Shown here in pieces: positions 5,347 to 40,016 of a stretch of DNA of 64,000 nucleotides (positions within the stretch are counted from its first letter, which is position 1; each line of letters opens with the position of its first letter). The stretch covers positions 124,001-188,000 of the forward strand of contig CAUJHR010000004.1 of the NCBI GenBank assembly GCA_963205195.1, given 5' to 3'. The notes below the pieces were generated by a model, which worked only from the letters and a program-made list of their open reading frames with translations, ran no database searches and was not told where the DNA came from. A program made the position numbers and the translations under genes. The stretch is from Pseudomonadota bacterium. GTDB taxonomy: Bacteria > Pseudomonadota > Alphaproteobacteria > Rickettsiales > SXRF01.

Positions 5347-5964
5347 CTAGCTTCTCAATTCTTCTTTCGCGTGCTTGATTATTTTAAAGGCGGCGCTGCT
5401 TTCGAGCCATGCAATCCCCAGAGCTACCAGCAAATCCGGTGCCAGAGAATCGGTAATGCTTACAAAAAATGCAGCTATAATTATCATGATGTTAGAGAGT
5501 ATATCGTTGCGGCTGCATAGCCACACAGAGCGCATGTTGCTGTCACGCCCGCGTGAACTATATAAAAGAATGGCGCTTATTAAATTTACGACAAGAGCGA
5601 GCAAACCAACCATACCCATCGTATCAGAAGCCGGGACTGTTTCATGAACAAGATTTATAGCGCCTTGTATAAGTGCTGTAGCCGCCAGAAGGAGCATGAA
5701 TGATGCCTTAAACAAAGCAGCTTTGGCGCGAACATGTATATGTTTCTGTATTACATAAAGCGTAATTATATAACTTAGCGAATCGCTGAAAAAATCCATG
5801 GAATCAGCCAGCAGCGAGCTGGAATTAGCATGCAATCCCTGAAATAACTCAATGAAAAACATTATTCCATTTAAAAGCAATGCGATCCATAACATTTTGC
5901 GGTCATGGGATATTGTGTCGCAGTGGCTATGTTCGTGGTCGTGTCCCATCAGGCTGCCAGCCAA
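5347..5964 (-). CDS. cation transporter (CDF-like) membrane protein
   Basis: N-terminal His cluster, [15 protein letters not shown], multiple TM segments. Confidence 0.75.
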
Positions 5965-6560
5965 GGTGTATTCTGCTTCTGGCGTGTTTCGTAATTTGCT
6001 ATGGAATCCAGCTTCTGGAAGGTAAGGCCAATATCATCGAGGCCATTTTTCAGGCAATGTTTACGGAAAGGCTCAACATCAAATGAATATGGTTGGGTGT
6101 TTTGCCCCTCAGCCTGCACTGTCTGTTTGTCGAGATCAACACTTATTTTTTTTCCAGATTTTGCTGACTCCATAAGCAGCGCTACCTGTTCTTTAGGTAG
6201 CTTTATGGGAAGGATTCCATTTTTGAAACAATTATTATAAAAAATATCGGCGTAAGATTCAGCTATAACACAGCGTATGCCAAAATCGAGCAACGCCCAG
6301 GGCGCATGTTCACGTGAAGAGCCGCACCCGAAATTTGCACCCGAAATTAGTATTTCCGCATGGGTGTATGGTTCACGGTGCAGCACGAAATCATCAACGC
6401 GTGTTCCGTCAACCCGGAAACGCATTTCATAGAATAGCCCTTCCTTAAGCCCGGTGCGGGCGATGGTTTTTAAAAACTGCTTTGGTATGATCATGTCGGT
6501 ATCGACATTATCAATCGGCAGCGGTGCTGCAATAGCATTTAAGTTGTTAAATGGTTTCAT
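5949..6560 (-). CDS. leuD: 3-isopropylmalate dehydratase small subunit
   Basis: [33 protein letters not shown]. Confidence 0.97.
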
Positions 6561-6572
6561 TTTAATTCTCTC

Positions 6573-6603
6573 TTGTCATTCCCGCGCAGGCGGGAATCTC
6601 TTT
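6573..6603. repeat. 31-bp REP-like inverted repeat, left copy
   Basis: TTGTCATTCCCGCGCAGGCGGGAATCTCTTT; perfect reverse complement of 6914-6944. Confidence 0.9.
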
Positions 6604-6607
6604 CAAT

Positions 6608-6907
6608 TTAAGCAAAGGCTATTGTTTCGTATAAATCTTTCCATAATGGATTTTGTCTGGTTATTAAATCATTTTTCATCGGACGTGTCCATTTTTTAAG
6701 ACGTTTTTCCCTTAAAATCGCTTCTTCCGCGCTGCCGTGAATTTCATAATAAACCAATAGTTTAATATTATACTTGCTTGTATGCCCTTTTATAATTTCA
6801 TTTTTATGTTGATATACTCGTTTTATTAAATCGGACGTAACGCCAATATAGATTGCTCCATTTTCGCGGCTTGCCATTATATAAACATAAAACTGCTTTT
6901 CATTCAT
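6608..6907 (-). CDS. GIY-YIG nuclease family protein
   Basis: YVYIMASRENGAIYIGVTSDLIKRVYQHKN...YYE...AILREKRLKKW. Confidence 0.9.
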   Translation of the reverse strand: MNEKQFYVYIMASRENGAIYIGVTSDLIKRVYQHKNEIIKGHTSKYNIKLLVYYEIHGSAEEAILREKRLKKWTRPMKNDLITRQNPLWKDLYETIAFA

Positions 6908-6913
6908 ATGGCA

Positions 6914-6944
6914 AAAGAGATTCCCGCCTGCGCGGGAATGACAA
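6914..6944. repeat. 31-bp REP-like inverted repeat, right copy
   Basis: AAAGAGATTCCCGCCTGCGCGGGAATGACAA. Confidence 0.9.
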
Positions 6945-6949
6945 GGGTC

Positions 6950-7102
6950 TTAAGTCTTCCACGGGTCTAAATCAATCGGAGTTAAGTTGCTGGGCTGGGC
7001 TGGTTTGCCGTAATTGAGCGAATCCCAATCAACAACTTCCTTTTTCTTTTCGTCTTTTTTATCTTTTTTACGAGAAAATAATTTGGAGAAAAATCCCATC
7101 AT
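6950..7102 (-). CDS. small lysine-rich protein (50 aa, absent from the ORF track)
   Basis: hand translation [50 protein letters not shown]; start overlaps leuC stop (ATGA). Confidence 0.6.
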
Positions 7103-8487
7103 TTAAACTCCCTTATGTCGGCAAGATGCCCGGTTACAGCGGCGGCAACTGCCATTGCTGGTGACAACAGGTGGGTACGCCCGCCGCGGCCTTGCCTGCC
7201 TTCGAAATTGCGGTTGGAGGTGGAGGCACAGCGCTCCCCGTCTTCCAGCTTGTCGGCGTTCATGGCAAGGCACATGGAGCAGCCCGGCTCTCGCCATTCA
7301 AAGCCGGCGGCTAGGAAAATTTTGTCTAGCCCTTCTTTCTCCGCTTGTTCTTTCACAAGGCCTGAGCCAGGAACGACCATTGCAAGTTTCACATTTTTGG
7401 CCACATGTTTTCCTTGCGCGAACTTCGCGGCTTCGCGGAGGTCTTCGATGCGCCCGTTGGTGCAGGATCCGATGAATACTTTATCGATTACTATGTCAGT
7501 AAGTTTCATGCCTGCGCTCAATCCCATATATTCCAGTGCGCGGGCTTTGGTAGGCGTATCCCCAGCAGGTACTGTTGCGGTTATAGGCAGCACATCTTCC
7601 GGCGAGGTTCCCCATGTAACCTGCGGGGCGATATCGGCAGCGTTTAATATAACTTCAGCATCATATTTTGCGCCCGCGTCAGATGGCAGGGTTTTCCAGT
7701 AAGCAACAGCCTTGTCCCAGTTTTCTCCGGTTGGTGCCAGTGGGCGGCCTTTTATATATTCAAAAGTTTTTTCGTCAGGTGCAATTAACCCTGCGCGCGC
7801 TCCGGCTTCGATTGACATGTTGCACACCGTCATGCGCCCTTCCATGGAAAGGTTTTTTATCGCATCACCTGCATATTCTATTACATAGCCTGTGCCGCCT
7901 GCGGTTCCGATCCTTCCGATTACTGCAAGGGTTATATCCTTGGCGGTAACGCCGGGGGGCAATGCTCCATCAATACGAACCAGCATATTTTTGGCGCGGC
8001 GCTGGATGAGGGTTTGCGTTGCCAGCACATGTTCAACTTCGGAAGTTCCGATGCCGAAAGCCAAAGCGCCGAATGCGCCGTGCGTAGATGTGTGCGAGTC
8101 GCCGCAGACAATGGTCATTCCCGGCTGGGTGAAGCCCTGTTCAGGGCCTACGATATGCACTATACCTTGGCGCTTATCGTCCATCGCGTAGTGGGTGATT
8201 CCGAATTCCTGTGCATTATTGGCAAGTGTCTGCACCTGGATGCGCGAGGTCTCATCCTTGATTATTCCCTGTTTGCGCTCCGGTGTGGTCGGTACGTTAT
8301 GGTCAGGAACCGCGAGTGTTGCGTCGGGGCGGCGAACTTTGCGGTTGCTTACGCGCAGCCCTTCAAAAGCCTGCGGGCTGGTTACTTCATGGATTAGGTG
8401 GCGGTCTATATAGATTAGACAGGTGCCATCATCCTGCGTATCGACAAGGTGGCTTTCCCAGATTTTATCAAAGAGAGTTTTGGTCAT
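7099..8487 (-). CDS. leuC: 3-isopropylmalate dehydratase large subunit
   Basis: [44 protein letters not shown]. Confidence 0.97.
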
Positions 8488-39489: not shown

Positions 39490-39921
39490 ATGGCTTCTAT
39501 TATATGTACGCGCAGGCTGGAATTTGATGCAGCCCACCGGGTTTTAGAGCATGAAAGCAAATGTAAGAACCTGCATGGCCACCGCTATGTGGTTGAAGCC
39601 GGTTTTACTGCAAGGCAGCTTGATAGTATAGGCCGTGTCGTAGATTTTGGCGTCATAAAAGAAAGGCTCGGTGCGTGGATAGATGATAACTGGGATCATA
39701 CAACGATACTTTTCGATAAGGACAAAGAGCTGGGCAAAGCCATCAGCGCCGTGACCGGGCAGGTGGTTTTTTATCTGCCAAGCAACCCGACTGCGGAAAA
39801 TATGGCTGCCTACCTTCTGGAAAATGTCTGCCCGCAATTATTTGCTGATTACGAGCTTAAATGCGTAAGCATAAAGCTGTATGAAACGCCCAATTGCTCA
39901 GTGGTTGCTTCCAAACATTAG
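39490..39921 (+). CDS. queD: 6-carboxytetrahydropterin synthase (QueD/PTPS)
   Basis: FDAAHRVLEHESKCKNLHGHRYVVE, NPTAENMAAYL, VKLYETPNC-like VSIKLYETPNCS. Confidence 0.93.
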   Translation: MASIICTRRLEFDAAHRVLEHESKCKNLHGHRYVVEAGFTARQLDSIGRVVDFGVIKERLGAWIDDNWDHTTILFDKDKELGKAISAVTGQVVFYLPSNPTAENMAAYLLENVCPQLFADYELKCVSIKLYETPNCSVVASKH

Positions 39922-40006
39922 TCATCCCGGGCTTGACCCGGGATCTAAGGACACAATCACTATTATAGAGCTTGGCATGAGATCCCCGCGCGGAGGCGGG
40001 GATGAC
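39921..40006. repeat. REPIN-like inverted doublet of GC-rich palindromes
   Basis: GTCATCCCGGGCTTGACCCGGGATCT ... GAGATCCCCGCGCGGAGGCGGGGATGAC. Confidence 0.8.
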
Positions 40007-40016
40007 AACAACCACA

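Follow-up and report, generated by a model that had tools for sequence, protein, structure and literature searches.

A GIY-YIG nuclease gene boxed by CGTC-type REP palindromes as a candidate minimal mobile element in bacteria

CGTC-tagged REPs are spread through Proteobacteria and beyond, and their CGTC-1 family includes the abundant Neisseria dRS3; when they were described, no dedicated transposase was linked to them, and they were left without an enzyme that could explain their spread (Di Nocera, De Gregorio and Rocco 2013, PMC3733652). A known arrangement of an enzyme with REPs is the REPtron, a single RAYT gene flanked by palindromes of its own type (PMC3116915, PMC8266576). A 2025 survey of REPs does not mention GIY-YIG proteins (PMC12306157). 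A connection between GIY-YIG proteins and REPs was not found in the literature that we searched.

GIY-YIG enzymes hydrolyse DNA. One group, Ssn, described by Chenal and colleagues (2025, in Nat Commun), reportedly consists of nucleases that have single-stranded DNA as their specific substrate, act on a Neisseria sequence of high copy number and have many homologues and matching sequences. The interaction of Ssn with the repeat is reported to modulate natural transformation in Neisseria. The link between enzyme and repeat may therefore already be partly known. What the present analysis adds is the boxed, REPtron-like unit, its gain and loss, and the connection to the open question of the CGTC REPs.

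The unit lies in the window, that is, the whole stretch of 64,000 nucleotides that was analysed, between leuD and a 49-aa ORF linked to leuC. The features concerned are as follows.

5949..6560, minus strand: leuD, 3-isopropylmalate dehydratase small subunit, the next gene downstream, separated from the left arm by 11 bp
6572..6945, unstranded: the whole unit, 374 bp, absent at the same junction in G001 and G002 of the same genus
6572..6603, plus strand: left arm, a TGTC-tagged REP palindrome with GTC tag at 6575-6577, stem-loop at 6578-6597 and tail CTC
6608..6907, minus strand: GIY-YIG nuclease ORF, 99 aa, catalytic residues intact
6914..6945, minus strand: right arm, repeating the left arm exactly as its reverse complement, with the palindrome at 6920-6939
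6950..7099, minus strand: 49-aa ORF overlapping the leuC stop, its own stop codon 4 bp from the right arm
7099..8487, minus strand: leuC, 3-isopropylmalate dehydratase large subunit
C22:71095-71457, elsewhere in the genome: second unit with a GIY-YIG gene, its protein 63% identical to that of the window (alignment)

An earlier, sequence-only reading had described a GIY-YIG gene boxed by a perfect 31-bp inverted repeat and interrupting the leuD/leuC cluster. The interruption and the perfect repeat are both confirmed, with a true repeat length of 32 bp (6572-6603 and 6914-6945), arms 100% complementary and 310 nt between them. Each arm is, as had been claimed, itself a palindrome, composed of TGTC, stem ATTCCCGC, loop GCAG, stem GCGGGAAT and the tail CTC, with a stem of 8 bp. 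The tags of both arms point outward, the left one towards leuD and the right one reading GAC on the plus strand at 6940-6942. The 31-mer occurs twice in the window, at 6573-6603 (+) and 6914-6944 (-), with 0 copies expected in shuffles, and further copies in the window were not found even at 3 mismatches. The nuclease ORF does nearly fill the interval, starting 6 bp and ending 4 bp from the arms; it is the only ORF in the unit, which holds no transposase of a known class. For a target-site duplication there are short A/T-rich candidates only, outside the arms at both sites in this genome, and these could be chance. Chance as the origin of the arrangement itself is excluded, because a second unit of the same build exists in the genome and the arrangement recurs widely. 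Elsewhere in the window, at 39921-40007, two opposed GTC-tagged palindromes with no gene between them have two different loop types, ATCCCGGG-CTTGA-CCCGGGAT and ATCCCCGC-CTCCGC-GCGGGGAT.

The 99-aa protein matches the Pfam GIY-YIG family (PF01541, E = 3e-17), and its sole NCBIfam match falls far under the cut-off. No variation is seen at residues Y9, Y20, R30, H34, E67 and N86 across an alignment of 49 homologues. AlphaFold models the protein with confidence (pLDDT 91.9), and among solved structures the UPF0213 protein 1zg2 comes closest, followed by Slx1. A gonococcal homologue with 52% identity is encoded within an array rich in dRS3 and may be the published Ssn; by size, sequence and repeat association the 99-aa protein appears Ssn-like. 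A homologue was not found in phage records.

Searched genome-wide, as the earlier reading had proposed for its 31-mer, the palindrome has 28 places at up to 3 mismatches in the 1.88-Mb genome (1 for a control pattern), dispersed and both with and without a GIY-YIG gene. Several form opposed pairs whose starts lie about 53 bp from each other, tags outward, in REPIN-like fashion. Two gene-less pairs have 30 of 33 spacer bases in common; their similarity seems to continue into the right flank, so that a larger stretch may be duplicated. Opposed pairs 100 bp to 1 kb apart number only two in the genome and each encloses a GIY-YIG gene; no other gene boxed by opposed palindromes was found in it. These two genes are the only members of the family in the genome; UvrC and a third GIY-YIG gene, which is of a different type (C21:3491), stand apart from it. 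A Y1/RAYT gene was not detected in this genome (PF01797, no match at E <= 1). The second unit occupies the junction of sulfite reductase and cysG; its ORF (L030 1390-1731) runs through the palindrome, which adds the C-terminal peptide IPAFAGMT to the nuclease.

Empty junctions between leuC and leuD, which the earlier reading had suggested seeking in relatives, were found in G001 and G002 of the same genus, where the 49-aa upstream ORF is conserved and leuD follows directly; the closed junction in G002 reads ...GACCCGTGGAAAACTTGATATG. The sulfite reductase-cysG junction is likewise closed in two genomes of the same genus, G001 and G003, and in several other family members, and in G001 reads ...GGGCTAAATAAAATGTTT. 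A palindrome was not found at the closed junctions of either unit in these relatives. The comparisons support the view that the unit is discrete and comes or goes in its entirety. In G008, of another genus, a unit also lies directly upstream of leuD (L111 / L034), with a protein 74% identical; silent sites there are saturated, the neighbouring ORF is different and the sampled closer relatives have no unit at that place. Its presence there may reflect common descent with losses or independent insertion. The leuC-leuD junction (L096-L125) holds varied extra small ORFs in many family members and thus looks like a general insertion spot. At the sulfite reductase-cysG junction of G009, another genus again, a decayed REP-like pair without a gene is present (L224).

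Presence and absence of whole units can also be read in named genomes. In Azospirillum lipoferum 4B a GIY-YIG gene between opposed REP pairs, together 617 bp, splits sufB from sufC, while A. oryzae, A. ramasamyi and strain B510 have 87-129 bp and no unit between these genes, with flanks 93-94% identical; a CGTC palindrome was not found at these empty sites. Among Sphingobium plasmids, TomTYG46 and TomTYG73 have a unit between fnrL and a response regulator, read directly, with the ORF frameshifted in TomTYG73, and five more plasmids match the full stretch. In TomTYG64 and TomTYG74 the same site has just one palindrome, with a tag at each end, which may have been left by the collapse of a unit or may show the state prior to insertion; TomTYG72 has no palindrome there. 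Homologues of S. meliloti, Shinella, Rhizobium CIAT894 and Novosphingobium are boxed by palindromes with a CTTG loop. On plasmid p1 of Planktothrix agardhii (L242), a GIY-YIG homologue sits among TGTCATTCTGAG-type repeats, flanked by an MmeI-type restriction gene and DISARM drmA.

Homologues are present in 28 of 55 genomes (the present one and its relatives), with up to 7 diverse copies per genome in different boxes, and their distribution is patchy even inside the genus, G002 having none; in a phylum-wide sample the gene is carried by 88 of 299 genomes. Both flanks of each locus were compared (match +1, mismatch -2), a box being called at a score of at least 16. Matching palindromes or repeats stand on both sides at 29 of 61 homologue loci within the same order, versus 1 of 1027 slid control windows, and at 52 of 89 loci of a wider sample, two of which are also among the 61, versus 3 of 1080; the control windows are mostly coding DNA, so that the within-genome comparison and the tests on arms matter too. 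As the arms are palindromic, the score shows the same palindrome on both flanks, and orientation was read separately: in the wider sample, which includes named Elusimicrobiota and Fibrobacteria records, 26 boxes are outward, 7 inward and 17 unclear. The earlier reading had set against itself palindromes unlinked to GIY-YIG genes and the ORF occurring without repeats, and both are seen in part, about half of the homologues having no simple box (32/61 and 37/89 fall under the threshold) and one genome, G042, having three palindrome types (20, 15 and 7 matches) and yet no homologue at E <= 1e-4; the overall association is strong nevertheless. G042 could hold relics or a different enzyme, and REPs could outlive or precede the gene. 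These data support a GIY-YIG/palindrome link that holds across genera and phyla. Three box types of other homologues illustrate the variation.

L046: ATACCGGC-GAAA
L044: ACCCCGCA-CTTGT
L083: ATCCTCGGG-CTTGA

Gene and palindrome are also coupled in type. The loop classes of two arms never conflict (GNAR/GNAR 21, CTTGN/CTTGN 15, mixed 0, with 19 further units having one or both arms unclassified), and loop class clusters on the protein tree, many forks of which are unresolved, with 13 changes versus 19.1 in shuffles, 1 of 500 being as low. In 33 of 39 units the two arms agree at all of the outer 7 stem bases, versus 5% of comparisons between units. Stems differ at 0.6 of 7 bases where proteins are at least 70% identical versus about 2.6 at 40-60%; over all homologues the correlation of protein and stem is weak (Mantel r = -0.08, p = 0.08). 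ATTCCC-type palindromes have a median of 11 per genome with a homologue versus 0 without (p = 7e-5). Two other box types, searched over the same 55 genomes, behave similarly: ATACCG palindromes, with box arms removed, number 7, 27, 5 and 1 in the genomes with such a box versus a median of 0 (p = 5e-5), and ACCCCG palindromes 45, 2, 5 and 10 versus a median of 0 (p = 2e-4); all of these p-values come from small groups of related genomes and ignore kinship. In G003, two different ACCCCG palindromes form opposed pairs with a fixed 60-bp offset at several sites (for example C67:10073/10133, C88:12855/12915 and C123:2640/2700), as if the pairs had been copied together. Double-tagged palindromes, the scar expected of collapse, are rare in the order of the window, with 11 distinct sites against roughly 680 ATTCCC-type palindromes, and were set aside as collapse scars, there being no excess over a naive 1/64.

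On the basis of these observations, we favor, at a probability of roughly 0.6, the interpretation that the unit is a selfish element of minimal size, which corresponds to the REPtron but is built on a GIY-YIG gene. The whole element would consist of a small nuclease gene and, on either side of it, a REP palindrome of CGTC type with its tag outward. The nuclease would recognize the tagged hairpin where DNA is single-stranded, such as the lagging-strand template or transforming DNA that enters the cell, and then nick it; the unit, together with the gene-less opposed pairs and single REPs that share its ends, would spread through the ends so made, whether excised as single strands or copied in the course of repair. 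That the boxed nuclease recognizes these palindromes is quite probable, whereas for the step from nuclease activity to palindrome spread we would give about even odds, the chemistry after cutting being the weakest step of the proposed mechanism. The analogy with RAYT transposases drawn by the sequence-only reading, with the nuclease mobilising REP-like palindromes, thus holds in that the palindromes are REP-like and dispersed, units come and go whole and no RAYT was found, while movement by the nuclease itself is a part that we infer.

A different view is that the nuclease serves its host, cutting repeats in transformation or repair for the benefit of the cell, that the pair is not a mobile unit, and that REPs gather near the gene through cutting there or because they regulate it. 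The genes are indeed under purifying selection (pN/pS 0.14-0.42 in homologue pairs), the reported effect on Neisseria transformation would fit such a role, and so would the position of the gonococcal homologue among dRS3 copies. Nevertheless, at unrelated sites the palindromes are found or missing together with the gene, and neither the multiple diverse copies in different boxes nor the patchy distribution within a genus is what this view leads one to expect, and we regard it as unlikely. A passenger gene, trapped and carried by palindromes that another enzyme, recombination or slippage moves, appears rather improbable. GIY-YIG enzymes are not known to have a strand-transfer step, opposed REP pairs without a gene outnumber the gene-holding units in this genome, and G042 combines many palindromes with no homologue, all of which would suit a passenger; against it, no other gene is boxed in the same genome, across many phyla different palindromes box members of one gene family, and the type of box tracks the palindromes of the genome. 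Nor is another candidate enzyme known for the CGTC REPs (PMC3733652).

Homing, on the model of free-standing homing endonucleases, would have the nuclease cut an existing palindrome in the recipient chromosome, the unit then being copied in by break repair. GIY-YIG is a known homing-endonuclease fold (PMC1564403, PMC7487136), and the double-tagged single palindromes of TomTYG64 and TomTYG74 could represent unfilled sites, or else collapsed units. We nonetheless consider homing distinctly improbable, since the closed junctions of both units and the empty sites of Azospirillum have no such palindrome, an intact target flanks the unit on both sides, which would leave filled sites unprotected from cutting, and units occupy unrelated junctions (leuC-leuD, sulfite reductase-cysG, sufB-sufC, fnrL-regulator) with no fixed conserved target. 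Finally, although REPs can act in RNA and both units of this genome lie inside operons, co-oriented with them, it is very hard to credit that the arms do no more than terminate transcription or form mRNA-stabilising hairpins on either side of a small gene, a reading rejected as an insufficient full explanation by the recurrence around one gene family (29/61 and 52/89 boxed), and opposed by the matching of the two arms, the dispersed copies, the presence or absence of whole units and the conservation of the unpaired GTC tag while stems vary freely.

If the selfish-element interpretation is correct, a hydrolytic nuclease rather than a transposase would provide a second route to populations of REPs and REPINs, and the boxed pairs would supply ready-made enzyme-target pairs for single-strand nucleases. 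The GIY-YIG family is the best candidate partner of the CGTC REPs, and a unit of about 370 bp, with one gene between matching palindromes, is a direct, testable candidate for the cause of their spread. A broader and more tentative proposal, which we place somewhat short of even odds, is that the CGTC REP superfamily as a whole has GIY-YIG (Ssn-like) nucleases as its dedicated enzymes. This would be a second kind of REPtron, not of HUH type, whose mobile palindromes are sustained by a purely hydrolytic nuclease, with dispersed CGTC REPs, dRS3 and the opposed pairs as its non-autonomous derivatives.

Compared with known systems, the arms fit the CGTC-1 class of REPs (PMC3733652), with which they share the TGTC/CGTC tag, an 8-bp stem starting A-T and a 4-nt loop, and the palindromes of this genome resemble that class in their dispersed intergenic copies, mostly in opposed pairs. 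The CGTC-1 tail is usually CCA, whereas the tail of the present arms begins with CTC and CCA is found in many relatives; the 2013 paper reports no transposase gene associated with CGTC-1, and here the palindromes box a GIY-YIG gene. The UPF0213 / YhbQ-type GIY-YIG proteins (PDB 1zg2, 1ywl) have the same fold and size as the 99-aa protein and are its nearest solved relatives by profile (E 3e-8) and fold, but are distant in sequence (about 26%). Like the 99-aa protein, Ssn are reportedly small stand-alone GIY-YIG proteins, of which the 52% identical gonococcal homologue in its dRS3-rich array may be one, and they are reported to cut single strands site-specifically. With the REPtron (RAYT/TnpA_REP; PMC3116915, PMC8266576) the unit shares a single gene with REPs on both sides, of a type that is also scattered over the genome, and the system shares gene-less opposed pairs and covarying types of enzyme and REP. 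The enzymes differ, RAYT being an HUH (Y1) tyrosine transposase and GIY-YIG enzymes having no known strand-transfer activity, and so do the tags, GTAG in RAYT REPs and TGTC/CGTC here, the GIY-YIG gene occupying the place that RAYT holds in the REPtron.
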